Origin: Actinomycetota bacterium
GTDB lineage: Bacteria > Actinomycetota > Acidimicrobiia > Acidimicrobiales > Acidimicrobilacustridaceae
DNA: 64,000 bases
Assembly: GCA_016185305.1 (NCBI GenBank)
Contig: JACPNV010000079.1
Location: forward strand, 62,001-126,000
Direction: 5' to 3'
Below are positions 1-11,181 of this stretch, in pieces (position 1 is the stretch's first letter; each line of letters opens with the position of its first letter). The position numbers were made by a program, and so were the translations under genes. The notes below the pieces were generated by a model that was given only the letters and a program-made list of their open reading frames with translations, had not been told where the DNA came from and searched no databases.

Positions 1-1448
1 TCGAAACCGAAGTTGGGGTCATAGGTGTAGGTGCGGCGGGCCATGCCCTGCAACCCGAGGATGTGCATCGGGCCGAACGTGAGGTTGAACCCGATCAGCA
101 TGAGCCAGAAGTTGACCTTGCCCAGCGTCTCGTTGAGCATGTAGCCGAAGGCTTTGGGCCACCAGAAGTAGAAGCCGCCCATGAAGCCGAGGAAGGCGCC
201 ACCGAAGAGCACGTAGTGGAAGTGGGCGACGATGTAGTAGGTGTCGGTCTGCTGGGTGTCGGCGGGCGCGATCGAGTGGGTCACGCCTGAGAGCCCACCG
301 ATGGTGAACATCGTGATCAAGCCGATCGAGAAGAGCATCGGCGTGTCGAACTTCAACTTGCCCCCGACCATCGTCGCCGTCCAGTTGAGGATCTTCACGC
401 CGGTCGGCACCGCGATGAACATGGTCGTCAGCGAGAAGACGGTGACCGAGATCGGTCCGATGCCGGAAACGAACATGTGGTGGGCCCACACGCCCCAGCC
501 CATGAAGCCGATGGCGATGCCGGAGAACACAATGAACGTGTAGCCGAAGATCGGCTTGCGGCTGTACACCGGCAGCAGTTCGGACACGATGCCGAACGCC
601 GGCAGGATCATCAGGTACACCTCGGGATGGCCGAACACCCAGAAGAGGTTCTCCCAGAGCAACGGGTTGGCGCCGTCCTGCACGTCGAAGAAGTTGGCTC
701 CGAACAACCGGTCGAACATCAACAGGACCTGCGCGACGGTGAGGACCGGGATGGCGAAGAGGAGCAGGAACTGGGTCACCAGCGTCATCCACGTGAAGAT
801 CGGCATGCGCATCAGGGTCATGCCAGGCGCCCGCATGTTGATGACGGTCGTGATGAGGTTGATGGCGCCCGTGAGCGAGGCGATGCCCGTGATCATCAGA
901 CCGAGGTTCCAGAAGTCGATGCCGCGCGTGGGCGAGAAGATGACCCCGTTGTTCGGGGCGTAGTTGAACCAGCCGCCGTCGGCCCCACCGCCCAGCAACC
1001 ATGAGGTGTTGAGGAAGATGCCCCCGAAGAGGAAGCTCCAGAAGCTGAACGCGTTGATGCGCGGGAACGCAACGTCGCGCGCACCGATCTGCAGCGGCAT
1101 GAGGAAGTTGGCGAACGCCGCGCCGATCGGCATGACGACAAGGAAGACCATCGTCGTTCCGTGCATCGTGTACACCTGGTTGTAGGCCTCGGCCGACAGG
1201 ATCTGTTGCCGCGGGGCCCACAGCTGGGTGCGGATGAGCAGCGCCTCGAAGCCGCCGATCATGAAGAAGAAGAACGCCGCCGCGCCGTACATGATGCCGA
1301 TCTTCTTGTGGTCGACCGTGCTCACCCACGAGCGCCAGCCCGTCTTGGTGCGAGGCCGGGTGAAGACGCCGAGGGTGGGCGCGGCTCCGGGGCCACTCGG
1401 GCCTCCGCCGGAGGGCAGGGCAAGCGGGCGGGATTCAGTTACTGCCAT
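1..1448 (-). CDS. ctaD: Cytochrome c oxidase subunit I (aa3 type), C-terminus cut by window edge
   Basis: Reverse strand from ATG at 1448 reads MAVTESRPLALPSGGG...GWRSWVSTVDHKKIGIMYGAAAFFFFMIGGFEALLIRTQLWAPRQQILSAEAYNQVYTMHGTTMVFL; later LWENLFWVFGHPEVYLMILP with intact HPEVY. Listed ORF 19..1329 is an out-of-frame shadow. Confidence 0.96.
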   Translation of the reverse strand, partial: MAVTESRPLALPSGGGPSGPGAAPTLGVFTRPRTKTGWRSWVSTVDHKKIGIMYGAAAFFFFMIGGFEALLIRTQLWAPRQQILSAEAYNQVYTMHGTTMVFLVVMPIGAAFANFLMPLQIGARDVAFPRINAFSFWSFLFGGIFLNTSWLLGGGADGGWFNYAPNNGVIFSPTRGIDFWNLGLMITGIASLTGAINLITTVINMRAPGMTLMRMPIFTWMTLVTQFLLLFAIPVLTVAQVLLMFDRLFGANFFDVQDGANPLLWENLFWVFGHPEVYLMILPAFGIVSELLPVYSRKPIFGYTFIVFSGIAIGFMGWGVWAHHMFVSGIGPISVTVFSLTTMFIAVPTGVKILNWTATMVGGKLKFDTPMLFSIGLITMFTIGGLSGVTHSIAPADTQQTDTYYIVAHFHYVLFGGAFLGFMGGFYFWWPKAFGYMLNETLGKVNFWLMLIGFNLTFGPMHILGLQGMARRTYTYDPNFGF

Positions 1449-1460
1449 GATGACGCCCCA

Positions 1461-2933
1461 TCAGTTCAGGGTCTCCAGGTAGGCGATGAGCTGGCTTATC
1501 TGCTCTTCGGTCAGGCCGAGGTTGGGCATGCCGCGCATCTTGAGGTCGTTCGTCGTGTTCGGGCCGTTGGCGTAGGGGTTCTGTTCTGGCGTGTTCGCCA
1601 TCGGCTTCTGCTTGCCCGGGTCGCGCAGCCACGCCGCGAGCGCCGGCGTGTAGAAGGGGTTCGCGGGGTTGCCCGGGTTGCTTGCGTCGCGCGGGTCACC
1701 GCACTGGCTGAGGCCGTCGGGTGTACACGTCGATTGGTACAGCCGGTAGGGCGGCGAGCCCTCGGGCGCCTGGTCGGGGTTGACCTTGTCGGGATAGCGC
1801 GAGTTGAAGATGGAACCCGCGAACATCCCGCGCGTGCTGAACTTGGTCAGGTCGGGCGCCTGCCCCGACACCTCCAGGTCTTTCACCCCCGGCTGCTTCT
1901 TGCCGCCAACCTCCTCGAGCCCGGCCACCTTCGCGTCGTTGATGCCCCGGACCGCGTGGCACGACGCGCAGAGCAAGGACTTGAACAGCTTCTGGCCCTC
2001 GACGGCCTTGGGATCGGCGGTTGGATCTTTCTCGAGGTCTCTTGCGGGCTTGCGCTGGTTCGCGAGCCAGGTGGCGAACTCGTCGGGCTGCACGACGCGG
2101 ACGACCATGCGCATGTTGGCGTGGGAGAGGCCGCAGAACTCGGTGCACTGCCCGAGGTAGACGCCCGGCTTGTCACCCTGGATCTTCCAGTACGTGTACA
2201 TGCCCGGCACGGCGTCTTTCTTCCCGTTGAGGGCGGGGATCCAGTAGGAGTGGATGACATCGTTCGACGTGATCCGCAGGCTGACCTCGCTACCGACGGG
2301 AACGACCAGCTCGTTCGCCGTCACCACGTCGTCGACCGAGTCGGCGGGGAACTCGCCGGCCTGGCCGCCCCGGATGGGCTGGCCGTCGGCGCCGACGTGG
2401 TAGCGGAAGCCCCACCACCACTGCTGGCCGAACACGTCGACCTTCATGGCATCGGGGGCGGGCTTTTCGAGCTGCTGGATGGTGACGACGGTGAAGAACC
2501 CGATGACGGCCAAGAGGATGGCCGGCGCGAGCGTCCATGCGATCTCGAAGGTGGTGTTGCCTTCGGTCTGCTTCACGAACTCTTCGTCGTCATCGCCCGG
2601 CCGCTCGCGGTACGTGATGGCGATGACCACGACAGCGCCGATGACCACGACGCCGACGACCGCCGCGATGGCGAAGACCGGGTTCACCAGGTTCTGGATG
2701 GTGATGGCGTTGGGACCCTGCGGGTTGAGGGTGTCGAGGGGCTTTCCTTGTGTCTGGAACCAGTCGTAGGCCTGCTGCACGAAGACCCACGTCACGATCA
2801 AGCATGCGACGAACCCGAAGATGCGCACGCCCCACGGCATGGGTTTGCGGATGAGCTCGGCCGCGGTCTTCGGCTCGCCGGGCACGCCGTCAGCCTGCTC
2901 GGGCGCATCGGCGTTGGGCGTGGCGTCACTCAT
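1461..2933 (-). CDS. ctaC: Cytochrome c oxidase subunit II with C-terminal cytochrome c domain (caa3-like)
   Basis: CuA motif GQCTEFCGLSHANM, two N-terminal TM segments, heme c motif CASCH. Confidence 0.96.
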   Translation of the reverse strand: MSDATPNADAPEQADGVPGEPKTAAELIRKPMPWGVRIFGFVACLIVTWVFVQQAYDWFQTQGKPLDTLNPQGPNAITIQNLVNPVFAIAAVVGVVVIGAVVVIAITYRERPGDDDEEFVKQTEGNTTFEIAWTLAPAILLAVIGFFTVVTIQQLEKPAPDAMKVDVFGQQWWWGFRYHVGADGQPIRGGQAGEFPADSVDDVVTANELVVPVGSEVSLRITSNDVIHSYWIPALNGKKDAVPGMYTYWKIQGDKPGVYLGQCTEFCGLSHANMRMVVRVVQPDEFATWLANQRKPARDLEKDPTADPKAVEGQKLFKSLLCASCHAVRGINDAKVAGLEEVGGKKQPGVKDLEVSGQAPDLTKFSTRGMFAGSIFNSRYPDKVNPDQAPEGSPPYRLYQSTCTPDGLSQCGDPRDASNPGNPANPFYTPALAAWLRDPGKQKPMANTPEQNPYANGPNTTNDLKMRGMPNLGLTEEQISQLIAYLETLN

Positions 2934-3865
2934 CGGGTCACCTGTACGACGATCGAGGGAGTGGGTGGCTGCACCGGAGCCAGCCCGCCTTCTCCGGTTC
3001 CGGAGCCTCCGCCGCCGCTGCCGGTGCCTTCACCGGCGGGAGCCTGTTCCTCACCGAAGGGGCGCTCGCCTTTCACGGCGGCGACGACACCACCGATCAA
3101 GAACGCGGCGGCGAGGACGAGGAACACGGCCGTGAGCACACCCTTGCTGGCCTTCGGGACGAACGCGATGAGCGTGAAGAGGAGGCCGAAGAAGACGAAC
3201 GTGCCGAGGAAGACCACGATGGCTGCCTCGCGACTGACGGCGAGGAGCACACGGGACAGGCCGAACACGACGACGGCGATCGCGCCGATGGACAGCACCG
3301 GGATGCGCACCGGGTCGATGAACCGGTTGTAGATCTCGCGGTTGACCTCGTCGTCACCCGTCGCCCGATCGGCCCAGGCCCGGAAGGTCCAGACCACGGC
3401 GGTGACCGCCAGCAAGCCGATGCCAGCGACGAACACCGCGCCGTTCGACACCCAGCCGATGCCGATCATTCCCACACCGAAGGCACCGATGATGGGCCAG
3501 TAGCTGGCACCTGACGGCGCCCGGGTCAACGGAACCGTCTCGGTGTGCACGGCCTCCGCCTCCGCGTCGGGGTCGGCGTCGCGAAACGCGATCAGCAGAC
3601 CAGCCAGGAACGCGGCGGCGAGAGCGAGCGAGAGCCACACGATGTAGCCGAGGTGGCTGCCGACAGGCCCTTTCCAGCCCAGTGTGATCGGACCGGTGAG
3701 GGTGTTGATCAGATCGTTGTTGTGGATCCACGGGAAGTCGCCGCCGAAGGTCAGCGGGTTGTCAGGGTTGCTGGCGATGCCGAAGATCGCGGCGAGCACG
3801 GTCGCGGCGATGGCCCAGCCGGCGAACAGCCGGAACAGCGGGGTGAACATCCGGGAGCGAAGCAT
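2930..3865 (-). CDS. Multi-TM membrane protein of the oxidase operon, unknown function
   Basis: 311 aa, about 7 hydrophobic segments; stop overlaps ctaC start by 4 nt. Confidence 0.8.
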   Translation of the reverse strand: MLRSRMFTPLFRLFAGWAIAATVLAAIFGIASNPDNPLTFGGDFPWIHNNDLINTLTGPITLGWKGPVGSHLGYIVWLSLALAAAFLAGLLIAFRDADPDAEAEAVHTETVPLTRAPSGASYWPIIGAFGVGMIGIGWVSNGAVFVAGIGLLAVTAVVWTFRAWADRATGDDEVNREIYNRFIDPVRIPVLSIGAIAVVVFGLSRVLLAVSREAAIVVFLGTFVFFGLLFTLIAFVPKASKGVLTAVFLVLAAAFLIGGVVAAVKGERPFGEEQAPAGEGTGSGGGGSGTGEGGLAPVQPPTPSIVVQVTR

Positions 3866-3880
3866 CGTGGGTTATGTGGG

Positions 3881-4483
3881 TTATTTGGTGATGTAGACGA
3901 TGAGGTAGATCAAGAAGAACACGAACACGTTGGTGTGCCAGAAGAGCGCGGCGGCCGAGATGCCGTCGTGCTGCCGGCTGGTGTACTGCCCGCCGAGAGC
4001 ACGGACGGCCATGAGCGCCACGAACACCATCGCGGCGATGACCGCGACCACATGGCTGCCGGTGATGGCGTAGACCAGCACGGCGAAGGGCTGGGCGGCC
4101 ACCTGGGAGATGTCGATGCCGAGCACCGTGTAGAGGTAGGCGGCCATGTTGATGTACGCGAACCCGAGGAAGAGCGTTGCGCCCAGGGCGAAGTAGGCGT
4201 TGGTGCGGTCGTCGTTGTTGATGGCCCACACAGCCCACTGCATGGTCACCACCGACATGAGGAGCGTGACCATCAGCATGTTGGGTTGGGTCAGCGGGAC
4301 CTGCACGCCCTGGGGGATCCAGAGGTTCCCGCCGCGCAGGGTTTGCGACCGCAACGTGAGGTAGACACCGAGCAGCGAGAGGAAGTACATGGCGGTGCCC
4401 ACCGAGACGAAGGCAGACGCCACGACGAGGACCCGGGGCCGGGCCACTGGCGCCGGAGGCGCACTGGCAAGGGACAACGCCAT
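3881..4483 (-). CDS. ctaE: Cytochrome c oxidase subunit III
   Basis: 200 aa multi-TM protein with COX3-like segments (GTAMYFLSLLGVYLTLR, GSHVVAVIAAMVFVALMAVRA) in a cox operon. Confidence 0.92.
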   Translation of the reverse strand: MALSLASAPPAPVARPRVLVVASAFVSVGTAMYFLSLLGVYLTLRSQTLRGGNLWIPQGVQVPLTQPNMLMVTLLMSVVTMQWAVWAINNDDRTNAYFALGATLFLGFAYINMAAYLYTVLGIDISQVAAQPFAVLVYAITGSHVVAVIAAMVFVALMAVRALGGQYTSRQHDGISAAALFWHTNVFVFFLIYLIVYITK

Positions 4484-6174
4484 CAGGAGGCCTCCTCATC
4501 GGTCTCGGTCGAGGGATCGCCCCGAAGGTCGTACACCGGTTCCGCGGATGACACCTCGTCAAGGTGCGCGAAGTTGCCCTGGCGCGGAGGCGACGCCGTG
4601 AGCCATTCGAGCGTCTGGCCCGAACCCCACGGATCGTCCGCTGCGCGCTTCCTCGAAAGCGCACCGTTCAACAGGGCCAGCACGACGATGACCACGGCGA
4701 CGGCGGCAAGGCCAGCACCGATCGTGCTGATCGTGCTGATGGTGTCGATCGACCCGTCGATGTCCGGCGACTTGTTGCCGAAACCGAACGCGATGAACGG
4801 CGGGCCGTACATCACCGTGGCGAGCAACATGACCAGCGTGACGAGCAGGGCCCAACCCTGACTGGCTGACCGACCGGTGATCTTGGCGCTCCAGTAGAAC
4901 AGCGCGGCGAACGCCGCTGCGGTCGCCGCGAGCACGACGATGCCGGTGAGGCCGACCTGGGCCGCCGGGTAGGTGGGAGTCCACAGCGTCTTGGTGAACG
5001 AGGCCAGGTTGCGGGGCGTGTCTGCCGAGAGCCCGTGGAGCTGGAACGGCTTGATCACGAAGGCGATGGCGCCGACCCATCCGAGCAGCAGCATCAGGAT
5101 CGAGACGACGCCCAAGAGGAAGGGCCCGCCTGGCCGGAGCGCGCCCTGGCGCACCGCGGTGACCCAGCCGCCCGCCAACACCAGGATCGGCAAGCCCAGC
5201 ACGATGCTGAGGGCGATGAACACGATCTGGTTGTAGAGATCGTTGTAGAAGAAGGCCTGGGCCCAGGCTCCGAGGCTGAACAGGCCGAAGGCACCGATCG
5301 CGCCCATCAGCGCACCTCGCTGGGGCTGGCGAGCCTTGGAGAACGTGGCGACCAGCTCGCACATGATGCCGAGCGCCGGTATGGCGAACGCGAAGATCTG
5401 CGGTTGGCCGAACACCCACGCGATCTGCTGCCACTGAACGAGCTGTTGCCCGAGCGTCGCACCCGCGGCACTGCGGTAGTCGAGGTCGGCCAGGACGAGG
5501 TTGCCCAACACGACGGGAAGGGTGAGGACCCAGGCGCTGGTCGCGATCACCATCGACCACGAGAAGAGCGGTACGCGGAAGAAGTCCATCCCCGGTGGCC
5601 GGAGCGTGATGATCGTGGTGGCGATGCAGACCGAGGCCAGCAAGACGGCGAGGATCACCATGCCGAAGCCGACGAATGCCAGATCGATTGCTTTGTTGAC
5701 CGAGCCGTCGGGGTTGAGCTTGCCACCGATGCCGCCGTCGGACGCGTACGCGGTGATGAGGACCACGGCGCCGACCAGCCAGGCCCAGAAGGCGGCCGCG
5801 GCGGCTCGGGGGAACGCGACGGTGCGCGCCCCGACTTGCAGCGGGCACACGACGGTGGCGATGCCGATGAACAGCGGCACGAGGAACAAGAAGACCATGC
5901 CGATGCGGGCAATCGTGAACACCTGGAACTCGTTCTGCGCACCGGGGAAGGTCGCCCCGCTGAGCTGGCCCGCCGCGGAGATCGTCGCGGCGACGAAGGT
6001 CGCGAGGCCGAAGATCAAGGAGAAGGCGATCCACATACGGCCGATCACCTTGTGGTCGGCCGTGCCGACCACGCCCGCCAAACCAGTCGGCTCGGCCTGT
6101 GTCGGCAGCTCTCGCGGCACCGATTCGCTCTCGGCGGGAAGCGCGTCAACAACGCTGTTGTCAGTTAGGGCCAT
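4483..6174 (-). CDS. COX1-family paralog lacking heme/CuB ligands
   Basis: COX1 framework motifs GTADHKVIGRMWI, VGARTVAFPRAAAAAFW, VFGQPQIFAFAIPALGIMCELVATFSK, FYWSAKITGR; canonical ligand histidines replaced. Confidence 0.9.
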   Translation of the reverse strand: MALTDNSVVDALPAESESVPRELPTQAEPTGLAGVVGTADHKVIGRMWIAFSLIFGLATFVAATISAAGQLSGATFPGAQNEFQVFTIARIGMVFLFLVPLFIGIATVVCPLQVGARTVAFPRAAAAAFWAWLVGAVVLITAYASDGGIGGKLNPDGSVNKAIDLAFVGFGMVILAVLLASVCIATTIITLRPPGMDFFRVPLFSWSMVIATSAWVLTLPVVLGNLVLADLDYRSAAGATLGQQLVQWQQIAWVFGQPQIFAFAIPALGIMCELVATFSKARQPQRGALMGAIGAFGLFSLGAWAQAFFYNDLYNQIVFIALSIVLGLPILVLAGGWVTAVRQGALRPGGPFLLGVVSILMLLLGWVGAIAFVIKPFQLHGLSADTPRNLASFTKTLWTPTYPAAQVGLTGIVVLAATAAAFAALFYWSAKITGRSASQGWALLVTLVMLLATVMYGPPFIAFGFGNKSPDIDGSIDTISTISTIGAGLAAVAVVIVVLALLNGALSRKRAADDPWGSGQTLEWLTASPPRQGNFAHLDEVSSAEPVYDLRGDPSTETDEEAS

Positions 6175-6376: not shown

Positions 6377-7294
6377 TCAGAGACCGAATCGGACCAGGAC
6401 GTCCACCGCCATCGCGGCGAACAGGACCGTGACGTAGGTGATCGAGAACCCGAAGAGCTTCATCGCCGACTTCGGGGTCTGCTGGCGGAGGACGGCGACG
6501 GCTCGGTACAGGAACATCGCGCCCGCCAGAACCGCTGCGCCGAGGTAGATCGGTCCCATTCCGGCGACCGGAGCGAACACGAGGGTGAAGGCCCAGACGA
6601 CGACCGTGTAGATCACGATCTGCCGGCTCGTCTCCCGCATGGTCGCCACCGACGGCAGCATAGGTACGTGGGCCGCGGTGTATTCGTCCTTGTACTTCAC
6701 GGCCAGCGCCCAAAAGTGCGGCGGCGTCCAGAAGAAGATGACGGCGAAGAGCACCACGGGAGCCCACGCCACCGAGTTGGTCACCGACGACCAGCCAACG
6801 AGCACCGGCACCGCGCCCGCGGCTCCGCCGATGACGATGTTCTGCTTCGACGTGCGCTTGAGCCACAGCGTGTAGACGAACACATAGAAGAGGCAGGCGG
6901 AGACCGCCAGCACCGCCGACAACATGTTCACGAACACCCACAGCCAGATGAACGCGATCGCTTCGAGGTTCACCGCGAACGCCAGCGCGTCGCGCGGAGA
7001 GATCACGCCGGTGACGAGAGGCCGGTTCTGCGTTCGATGCATGACCGCATCGATGTCGCGGTCGACGTACATGTTGATGGCGTTGGCACCGCCCGCCGCG
7101 AGCGAGCCGCCCACGACCGTGGCGACCATCAGCCAGATGGACGGAAGGCCCTTCTCGGCGACGACCATCACCGGCACCGTGGTGACGAGCAGCAGCTCGA
7201 TGATGCGCGGCTTGGTCAGCGCCACGTAGGCGGCCATTCGAGCCCGGAGGTCGATCGGAACGGTCGCGGTCGGCGCAACGGCCGTCGTCTGCAT
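6377..7294 (-). CDS. ctaB: Protoheme IX farnesyltransferase (heme O synthase)
   Basis: TKPRIIELLLVTTVPVM, NAINMYVDRDIDAVMHRTQNRPL, FFWTPPHFWALAVKYKDEY. Confidence 0.96.
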   Translation of the reverse strand: MQTTAVAPTATVPIDLRARMAAYVALTKPRIIELLLVTTVPVMVVAEKGLPSIWLMVATVVGGSLAAGGANAINMYVDRDIDAVMHRTQNRPLVTGVISPRDALAFAVNLEAIAFIWLWVFVNMLSAVLAVSACLFYVFVYTLWLKRTSKQNIVIGGAAGAVPVLVGWSSVTNSVAWAPVVLFAVIFFWTPPHFWALAVKYKDEYTAAHVPMLPSVATMRETSRQIVIYTVVVWAFTLVFAPVAGMGPIYLGAAVLAGAMFLYRAVAVLRQQTPKSAMKLFGFSITYVTVLFAAMAVDVLVRFGL

Positions 7295-7413
7295 CGACGA
7301 AGAGGTTAGGCGGTCTCGGCTTCCGATCGACAACTGTCGTCGACGCGCAAGCGGCGTGGGCGAGAGCGGCGGCGACTCCGGGTGAGGGGAAGATCGCCCC
7401 TACGATCGCCACC

Positions 7414-8328
7414 GTGCCCGCAACGCTCGATTCGGTACCGCGTCTCTCCCCCCGGACCTACCACCGCGTGTGCCAGCTCGCGCTGTTCGCGCTCGCGTTC
7501 ATCGTGGTGACGGGAGCCGGAGTCCGGCTCACCGGCTCGGGACTGGGATGCTCGGACTGGCCGACGTGCGAGCAGAACGAACTCGTCGCGCCGCTCGACA
7601 ACTTCAACGCCATGGTCGAGTTCGTGAACCGGGCGATCACCGGCCTGGTCTCGATCGTGATCATCCTCGCGGTGCTCGGTTCGCTGCTTCGCCGACCGCT
7701 CCGGCACGATCTGGTGTGGTGGTCGCTCGGCCTGGTGGGAGGCCTGATCGCCCAGATCGTCCTTGGGGGGCTCACGGTGAAGTTCGAGCTGAGCCCGCCG
7801 TTCGTGATGGCGCACTTCGCCCTCTCGATGGTCCTGCTGTGGAATGCCGTCGTCCTCGAGCACCGCGCTGGGGAAGCCGACGGGCCGGCGGTCGCCATCG
7901 TTGCGGCCATGGTCCGGCGTCTGGGACGGGCGCTGTTCGTCCTCGCTGCCATCGTCCTGTTCACCGGCACCGTCGTCACCGGATCGGGCCCCCATGGCGG
8001 TGACGAGCGCGTGCGACGGCTCCCGTTCTACATCCCCGAAGTCGCGCGCATCCACGGCCTGTTCGTCATTGCGCTTCTGGCCACGACCGTCGTGACACTG
8101 TGGCTGTTGCAGCGCAACGGCGCGCCGCGATCCGTGAACCGGCGCGGACAGGTGCTGGTCGGCGCGATCGTGATCCAGGCGCTGATCGGCTACACGCAGT
8201 ACTTCACGGGCGTACCCCCGGGCCTCGCCCTCCTGCACGTCGTCGGCGCCACCGTCGTGTGGATCGCGGTGTTGCGCTTCCACCTCGGGCTTTGGACTCG
8301 AGCCGAAGTCGTCGATGGAGGCGGGTAG
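7414..8328 (+). CDS. ctaA: Heme A synthase (COX15/CtaA)
   Basis: [46 protein letters not shown]; divergent from ctaB. Confidence 0.95.
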
Positions 8329-9327: not shown

Positions 9328-11181
9328 TCAGCCGCAAGCAGCTCTCGCGTCGAGAATCCGCTTGGTGATGTCGGACTCGTCCGGGTTCGGATTCACCGCC
9401 ACCTCCATCGGGAGGTTGTCGGTGAAGCTCTTCGCGATGCACGACGCCTTGTCCGGCGGCACGCGGCCTTCAAGCGCGCTCGCGTAGATGTACAGCCTCG
9501 TCGAGGGCAGAGCGAACGCCTTGCTCGGTGTTCCATCGATGGCCGCGTCGGCTTGGGCGCCTGGGTCGCAGGTCGTCAGCTCGAATCGATCGTCCTGGCG
9601 GTCGACGGAGGCGTCGGTGCCCGTCGGCATCTTCTGATTCCACTGATCGATGATCGGCGCGACGGCGTCCGCCGCCTCGGCGCTATCGACCGCCACGACC
9701 ACCTTCGCGCACACCCTGCCCCCGTCGCGGTAGGCGACCATGGCGTCGCCGTTCCACACGTCGATCACCTTGAGGGCGTCGTGAGGGTCGACTCGGGCGG
9801 CAAGCATCAAGTAGAAGTCGAGGACCCCGAGTTGCTCGTAGTCGTTCGGCTCTCCCTCTCGTTGGCCGAGGATCTGGGCGCTGGCGGGAACTTTCGGCGT
9901 GGACACCGTGGCCAGCTTTCGACGCCCGAAATAGTCTTCGGGGTCGATGATCTGAGCCTCGCCGGCTGGCGGCTTGCGCAGCGCGTTGTTCACCTCCGCG
10001 GTACCACCCTTGGCTTCCAGCAGGCGCAGAAAGGGCGTACCGAACTCATACGGCGCGCCGAAGGACGCCACAAGAACGTCGGGCACAGACCCAACGCCTT
10101 GACGGGCCGCGTCGGCGTCCTTCTTCTCCTGCGACTTGAACGCATCCTGATCGGCCTGCGGCAAGCCGTCGACGTACTTGCGCTCGATGCGCGCCGCGTC
10201 GCCCTCGACGACCGTGCGGAACGCCGTGCGTTCGTCGTCGGTCTTCAACGAGCTGAGCTGCTGCAGATCGAAGTTCTGGTCCTGCAGCGCATGGGTGAGC
10301 TCGTGGACGAGAGTCACCTTTCGCGAGAGATCGAGGTCGGTGCCTCGCACGTACACCTGCTTCGCCTTCGAGTCGTAGTACGCCAACGTCCCGCCCTGCC
10401 GGAGCTGGTTGGACTGCTCGAGAAGGTTCACGTCTCCTTGCAACAAGCCGAGCGCTCGGAACAGCTCGACCGCTTCTTGCATCTGCTGCTTGTCGTCGTC
10501 GCTCTGACCGGTCGTCGGCGTCGCGACCTTGGCCGTGAACTCGTCTTCGGTCAGGAAGTTCACATAGACGGGGTTCGCGAACTGCAGCTTCCGTTCGCGC
10601 TCCACGAAGCTGACGATGCTGGTCACCCGAGGATCCCACTGTGCCGGGTACTTCTTGCTCCGCCCGATGAGGACGGCACCGCCAAGGCCCAGCGCGCCCA
10701 CGAGCAGCAGCGCCATGATGAGGATGCCCGCCACCGTTCCCTTCGACATCGTCCGCTTGCGGGCCGGCGGCGGCGCGCCCCATGGCTGCGCGTAGCCGTA
10801 GCCCGGCGGAGCGCCGTAGCCCGGCGGAGCGCCGTAGCCCGGCGGAGCGCCGTAGCCCGGCGGAGCGCCGTAGCCCGGCGGAGCGCCGTAGCCCGGCGGC
10901 GCGTAACCCTGGGGAGGCGCAATGCCGGGGGGAGACGGCGCGGCCGGGCCGTGTCCCGGGGGGGCGAACGGCAGCGCCGGGTCGGGCGGTGGGCCCGAGG
11001 GCGGGGCCCAGCTCGGCGGCGGTGGTGGTCCTCCCGGCGCTGCGTGCGCGGCGGGCTGGGCAGGAGGAGCGGCAGCGGTGGGCAGGCCCGCCGGACCGGT
11101 CAGCGACGCGCGACAGATGCGGCATTCGGCGTCGGAAGGGAAGACGATCGCCCTGCACACCGGGCAGTTGGAGAAGCTCAC
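9328..11181 (-). CDS. Membrane-anchored putative zinc metallopeptidase with N-terminal zinc ribbon and proline-rich repeats
   Basis: CPVCRA...CRICRA, PPGYGA repeats, one TM, LVHELTHALQDQNFDL (HExxH). Confidence 0.75.
   Translation of the reverse strand: MSFSNCPVCRAIVFPSDAECRICRASLTGPAGLPTAAAPPAQPAAHAAPGGPPPPPSWAPPSGPPPDPALPFAPPGHGPAAPSPPGIAPPQGYAPPGYGAPPGYGAPPGYGAPPGYGAPPGYGAPPGYGYAQPWGAPPPARKRTMSKGTVAGILIMALLLVGALGLGGAVLIGRSKKYPAQWDPRVTSIVSFVERERKLQFANPVYVNFLTEDEFTAKVATPTTGQSDDDKQQMQEAVELFRALGLLQGDVNLLEQSNQLRQGGTLAYYDSKAKQVYVRGTDLDLSRKVTLVHELTHALQDQNFDLQQLSSLKTDDERTAFRTVVEGDAARIERKYVDGLPQADQDAFKSQEKKDADAARQGVGSVPDVLVASFGAPYEFGTPFLRLLEAKGGTAEVNNALRKPPAGEAQIIDPEDYFGRRKLATVSTPKVPASAQILGQREGEPNDYEQLGVLDFYLMLAARVDPHDALKVIDVWNGDAMVAYRDGGRVCAKVVVAVDSAEAADAVAPIIDQWNQKMPTGTDASVDRQDDRFELTTCDPGAQADAAIDGTPSKAFALPSTRLYIYASALEGRVPPDKASCIAKSFTDNLPMEVAVNPNPDESDITKRILDARAACG
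10801..10890 (+). repeat. 18-bp tandem repeat, 5 perfect copies (gcccggcggagcgccgta)
   Basis: Direct reading; encodes the PPGYGA repeats of the minus-strand protein. Confidence 0.95.

Follow-up and report, generated by a model that had tools for sequence, protein, structure and literature searches.

A cofactor-free COX1 homologue with its own COX3 and CtaF-like partners inside a caa3-type oxidase operon

Haem-copper oxidases are defined by their subunit I, and we know of no described natural haem-copper subunit I that has lost every cofactor yet has been retained. In cytochrome bd, the catalytic subunit CydA is paired with a homologous subunit, CydB, that lacks its cofactors. Two other described systems serve as references for the locus reported here, namely the A-family CtaD of M. 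smegmatis (6adq_F) and the caa3 operon ctaCDEFG of T. thermophilus (2yev). COX1 variants are surveyed in PMC8239418. In the literature searched, outside subscription journals and supplements, we found no published description of the three-gene module set out below.

A second COX1-COX3 set ahead of an intact oxidase operon

The window, i.e. the whole 64,000-nucleotide stretch of actinomycetotal DNA that was analysed, encodes the following proteins near its start:

7414..8328, plus strand: ctaA, haem A synthase homologue, divergent neighbour (PF02628, E=4.8e-26)
6377..7333, minus strand: ctaB, haem O synthase, first operon gene (PF01040, E=8.6e-65; NF003349, 406 bits)
4483..6174, minus strand: dead COX1, cofactor-free COX1 homologue of 563 aa, with a COX1 fold (predicted), no ligand His and no D132, E286 or K362
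3881..4483, minus strand: ctaE1, COX3 homologue of the dead module (PF00510, E=6.8e-15; own clade)
2930..3865, minus strand: p311, with a CtaF-like N-half and a C-half resembling a cupredoxin anchor, with loss of the cupredoxin domain (profile and sequence comparison)
1461..2933, minus strand: ctaC, COX2 whose sequence shows a CuA motif (CTEFCGLSHANM) and, in a fused cytochrome c, a CxxCH motif (CASCH) (PF00116, E=6.3e-23; PF00034, E=1.5e-8)
3..1448, minus strand: ctaD, live COX1 with every ligand in place, incomplete at the window edge (alignment)

The full minus-strand order is ctaB, dead COX1, ctaE1, p311, ctaC, ctaD, ctaE2, COX4_pro and ctaG, of which ctaE2, the COX4_pro protein (PF03626) and CtaG (PF09678) lie beyond the window edge. 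Like the T. thermophilus operon, the locus encodes a CtaC with CuA and cytochrome c, an intact CtaD, CtaE, COX4_pro and CtaG; unlike it, an extra set of dead COX1, COX3 and CtaF-like protein precedes ctaC. This three-gene module (dead COX1, ctaE1 and p311) is inserted between ctaB and the intact caa3-type operon, which as a whole has two COX3 genes, ctaE1 in the module and ctaE2 after ctaD. The overlap of the dead COX1 stop with the ctaE1 start (TGATG), noticed in a first-pass annotation of the window, is real; the same annotation rightly read HPEVY in ctaD but placed that gene two genes downstream of dead COX1, whereas it is the fourth. The minus-strand assignment, the second COX3, the nature of p311, the losses of E286, Tyr, D132 and K362 and the stepwise loss described below go beyond that annotation.

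In locus L041, where ctaD is complete, it forms a 689-codon open frame with a C-terminal CtaF/PF12270 hairpin. Since CtaC carries CuA and a fused cytochrome c, and CtaD retains all ligands together with the PF12270 hairpin, the features of a caa3-type oxidase are present and the live enzyme is caa3-like. An association with alternative complex III was rejected, NrfD being detected in just 7 of 26 relatives and not detected in the window's genome (72% complete). Elsewhere in this genome (L042, 9020-15749), a second COX1 is encoded together with ctaC and a divergent ctaE, homologues of QcrA and QcrB being close by; this is probably a bcc-aa3 system beside the caa3-like one.

Ligand loss and predicted fold of the dead COX1

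Dead COX1 matches PF00115 with E=7e-37 (127.7 bits versus a cut-off of 34.8), and its closest sequence relatives in the PDB are mycobacterial and corynebacterial CtaD. An AlphaFold2 model (pLDDT 73, pTM 0.80) superimposes on 6adq_F with Z 36.3 over 453 residues (3.2 Å, 22% identity), and the COX1 fold, which the first-pass annotation had recognised as a framework, is intact in this prediction. Like M. smegmatis CtaD, the protein has the 12-helix fold, the DHK N-terminus and a C-tail with PLQxGA and LEW...SPP; unlike it, it has none of the haem a, haem a3, CuB and Tyr ligands and no D132, E286 or K362.

With CtaD from the same operon as the reference for the ligand columns, the haem-a His aligns with Ala, GHPEVY with GQPQIF and WAHH with WAQA, and the helix X region matching VAHFHYV is without His, all as had been read by eye. 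In addition, E286 is replaced by Gln, the cross-link Tyr288 by Phe, D132 by Thr and K362 by Leu. The entire His content is H41, H380 and H537, in agreement with the earlier count of three, none at a ligand site, and the predicted helices II, VI, VII and X (79-113, 243-279, 286-308 and 403-427) hold no His. Because the ligand helices are devoid of any His, the ligand loss is independent of fine alignment, and we rejected misalignment as its cause. The window protein thus has none of the six His ligands (haem a, haem a3, CuB) of a haem-copper oxidase subunit I, nor the cross-link Tyr and the D and K proton pathways of the A family, and a proper alignment places no His at its ligand positions; in the full alignment, the ten sites (ligands, Tyr, E286, D132 and K362) are intact in all 64 live COX1 copies. 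A pseudogene was likewise rejected, on the grounds of the intact 563-aa frame and of a closest-pair dN/dS far under 1.

The caveat in the first-pass annotation that the protein might belong to an already catalogued subfamily gained no support: the protein scores far below the cut-offs of the NCBIfam CtaD equivalogs (206.7 versus 670.75 bits for TIGR02891; 196.9 versus 880 for NF050116), as do the basal dead members (311-376 bits), and neither Pfam nor NCBIfam yielded a dedicated family. PF00115 matches in module-bearing genomes include non-oxidases.

Partners, distribution and selection

CtaE1 is a COX3 by its PF00510 score (56.1 bits versus a gathering cut-off of 23.8) and forms a separate clade (SH-aLRT 99). 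For p311, PF12270 (Cyt_c_ox_IV) matches the orthologues below threshold (best orthologue 19.3 bits versus a gathering cut-off of 26.9), spanning most of the profile in several, while the N-half matches the CtaD-fused CtaF hairpin by profile-profile comparison (hhalign 95%, E=2.4e-8). On this match, the N-half resembles actinobacterial CtaF (PF12270), from which p311 differs by three extra helices and, in basal lineages, by a cupredoxin domain. The 311-aa membrane protein proposed earlier as an unknown partner is probably a partner indeed, but a CtaF-like one. Its predicted model is too weak for a fold search (pLDDT 54, pTM 0.41), and a MARVEL match lies under the Pfam cut-off.

In its C-half, p311 is similar to the part that anchors a cupredoxin protein in the membrane, the gene for which lies next to caa3 genes elsewhere (L125). 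A cupredoxin-like tail bearing the motif C(D)(F/V)H...M still closes p311 in f7, f10, f20 and f128; Pfam Cupredoxin_1 confirmed the domain in L085, L090 and L102, and that of f128 and of the second f10 genome was recognised by motif only. The f2 protein has a tail of similar length with neither Cu motif nor Pfam match, and window p311 has no such tail. At L125, the gene matching the C-half itself carries a cupredoxin domain. In other orders and a neighbouring class (L153-L159 and L125), a gene matching the C-half adjoins caa3 operons (ctaC-ctaD-ctaE), the matches in other orders (L153-L159) being short.

Of 37 genomes of the window's family, 35 have a match that scores as an orthologue of dead COX1, and such matches also occur in much of the order. 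With about 100 genomes in all, the recurrence is not due to chance. The COX1 of L114 proved live (HPAVY) and was removed from the dead set. The order ctaB-dead COX1-ctaE1-p311-ctaC-ctaD-ctaE2 is the same in almost all loci that are long enough to show it, dead COX1 recurring after ctaB and before ctaE1 in the neighbourhood survey that the first-pass annotation had proposed, and about 20 family codes keep the module genes as a unit. In a sample of 151 genomes of the order, p311 and a CtaF-extended CtaD occur in the identical 96 and are missing from the remaining 55, a match that is phylogenetically non-independent and much of which gene linkage alone would yield; its Fisher p-value is for these reasons no true probability. 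In a phylum-level search, the strong matches outside the order were live COX1 (in the sample of top matches read), and the module was found only in one order, which its named carriers (Acidimicrobiales, Candidatus Microthrix and 'uncultured actinobacterium') suggest to be Acidimicrobiales. The extended CtaD occurs in other orders without the module.

All dead copies form a single clade apart from all live COX1 (SH-aLRT 100). Across 17 complete loci, mean identities are 34% for dead COX1, 37% for ctaE1, 36% for p311, 44% for ctaC, 66% for ctaD and 64% for ctaE2; the proteins of the module evolve at a common, fast rate, above that of live CtaD and CtaE2. Even so, the closest pairs, at a dN/dS of about 0.07-0.14, show dead COX1 to be under purifying selection. 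Its most conserved residues concentrate at 101-135, 181-220 and 521-550. Helix II/III, helix IV/V and the C-tail have stayed conserved, and the surroundings of the catalytic helices have not; in known oxidases, the conserved regions face COX3. A mirror-tree partial distance correlation between dead COX1 and ctaE1 (0.02) singled out no clear contact signal.

Order of cofactor loss and candidate roles of the module

In a tree rooted on live COX1, the early branches of the dead clade are L102 and L165/L169/L085/L090/L161. These six retain the haem-a bis-His in 6/6, the a3 His in 4/6 and the cupredoxin Cu motif in 5/6 cases, and several basal members also keep E286 and Tyr288. Crown members have no Cu motif, and among them only f17, f30 and two of the four f18 sequences still have the bis-His. 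No dead copy (n=96) holds more than one of the three CuB His, and essentially none retains D132 or K362. The most parsimonious history on this tree has CuB changing once, the cupredoxin twice, haem a three times and a3 five times, the a3 count resting on the alignment in a fast-evolving helix. Haem and cupredoxin-Cu sites were lost in largely the same lineages, and the redox module appears to have been emptied of its cofactors stepwise with the scaffold retained. Homologues with intact ligands at the locus, which the first-pass annotation had named as refuting its reading, exist only in part: basal ones keep haem ligands, but the full set is never present, a result that informs the reading and does not refute it.

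Within the basal group, the COX1 homologues of L085, L090, L161 and L169 (f7, f10 and f128) combine the His of haem a and a3 with a lack of CuB ligands (GRPEVY-like, WxAG) and are paired with a CtaF-cupredoxin fusion; they are possibly CuB-less haem proteins.

We consider it somewhat probable that the dead module is a redox-silent half-oxidase, the structural partner of the live caa3-type oxidase in a pseudo-dimer. Dead COX1, ctaE1 and p311 would form a COX1/COX3/CtaF-equivalent half without COX2, which would associate with CtaC, CtaD, CtaE2 and COX4_pro from the same operon into a complex with one catalytic and one empty half, like CydB with CydA. The pairing principle would be the same if the complex forms, and the fold and family of the module are unrelated to those of cytochrome bd. 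With its own COX3 and CtaF-like subunit, the module gives each half a matching subunit set. Further support comes from the constant gene order and the exact co-occurrence with CtaF-extended CtaD, from the shared fast rate of the module proteins together with purifying selection and an intact predicted fold, and from the conservation of structural regions alongside the joint loss of haem and Cu sites. On the other hand, fast evolution would also suit a peripheral factor, the partial correlations point to no dead COX1-ctaE1 contact in particular, and the co-occurrence carries less weight for its dependence on relatedness and linkage. As live CtaD works in other orders without the module, catalysis as such does not depend on a dead half. 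Site loss, fold, operon, co-occurrence, clades, selection and basal intermediates are observed, and complex formation with a stabilising or docking role is what we infer. The first-pass suggestion of a structural, assembly or regulatory subunit set the right frame, within which we prefer a redox-silent half that would associate physically with the live one.

The ancestral module would already have lost CuB and both proton channels while holding haem a (often a3) and a Cu-cupredoxin; crown lineages, including that of the window, would later have discarded the haem and cupredoxin sites and kept fold and subunit set. More tentatively, we propose a heterodimeric cytochrome c oxidase with a catalytic and an emptied half, whose intermediates record the order of loss: CuB and the proton channels, then haem a3 and the cupredoxin copper, and low-spin haem a last.

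A transient assembly platform, which would take up haem A, Cu or subunits not yet assembled or hand them on to CtaD without being part of the mature enzyme, is the alternative that survives best, and we regard it as unlikely. Dead COX1 is the first structural gene after ctaB, close to ctaA and ctaG, its TGATG would couple its translation to that of ctaE1, and the ancestral sites for haem and Cu may once have served as carriers; yet the crown lost these sites and retains the whole subunit set, the same kind of oxidase is assembled without the module in other orders, and COX3 and CtaF equivalents would be unexpected for an assembly factor. Less probable still is that the module forms a membrane complex of its own, for transport, as a channel or in gas or stress sensing, and has only the operon in common with the oxidase. 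This reading would have to explain the restriction to exactly the extended-CtaD genomes, in the same operon and within the order, the loss of the D and K pathways and the lack of any dead-specific polar motif conserved as strongly as the structural residues; what commends it is the module's own COX3 and CtaF-like partner, which make it potentially self-sufficient, and a rate class of its own. That a redox or ligand-binding role persists via non-canonical sites, e.g. with haem bound differently, draws on the basal members with haem a and a3 His, several with E286 and Tyr288, and seems highly improbable for a window protein with three His outside the ligand helices and a p311 without cupredoxin domain. 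A decaying duplicate without present function, which long branches and repeated loss of ligand sites might suggest, is scarcely credible, given frames open nearly throughout, closest-pair dN/dS well below 1, invariant structural residues and C-tail, and the cohesion of the three genes over about 20 family codes.

If the redox-silent half sits in the enzyme, the scaffold role of COX1 is separated from its role as catalyst, and the proton-pump and assembly literature would gain natural controls. Through the basal forms, which lack CuB but bear haem, the order of cofactor dispensability would become testable.

Two observations lie outside the module. In a class-level search for the CtaD extension, many genomes of other families had one in-frame TGA (or TAA) within the CtaD tail and CtaF hairpin match, CtaD and hairpin being apparently split by a same-frame stop (e.g. 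G110:C28:7527-7931 and G086:C42:17104-17508). Elsewhere in the window, a 617-aa protein (ORF 9328-11181, minus strand) contains repeated PPGYGA-type motifs (10620-10930), and the rest of its sequence holds a metallopeptidase-like HELTHALQD stretch.
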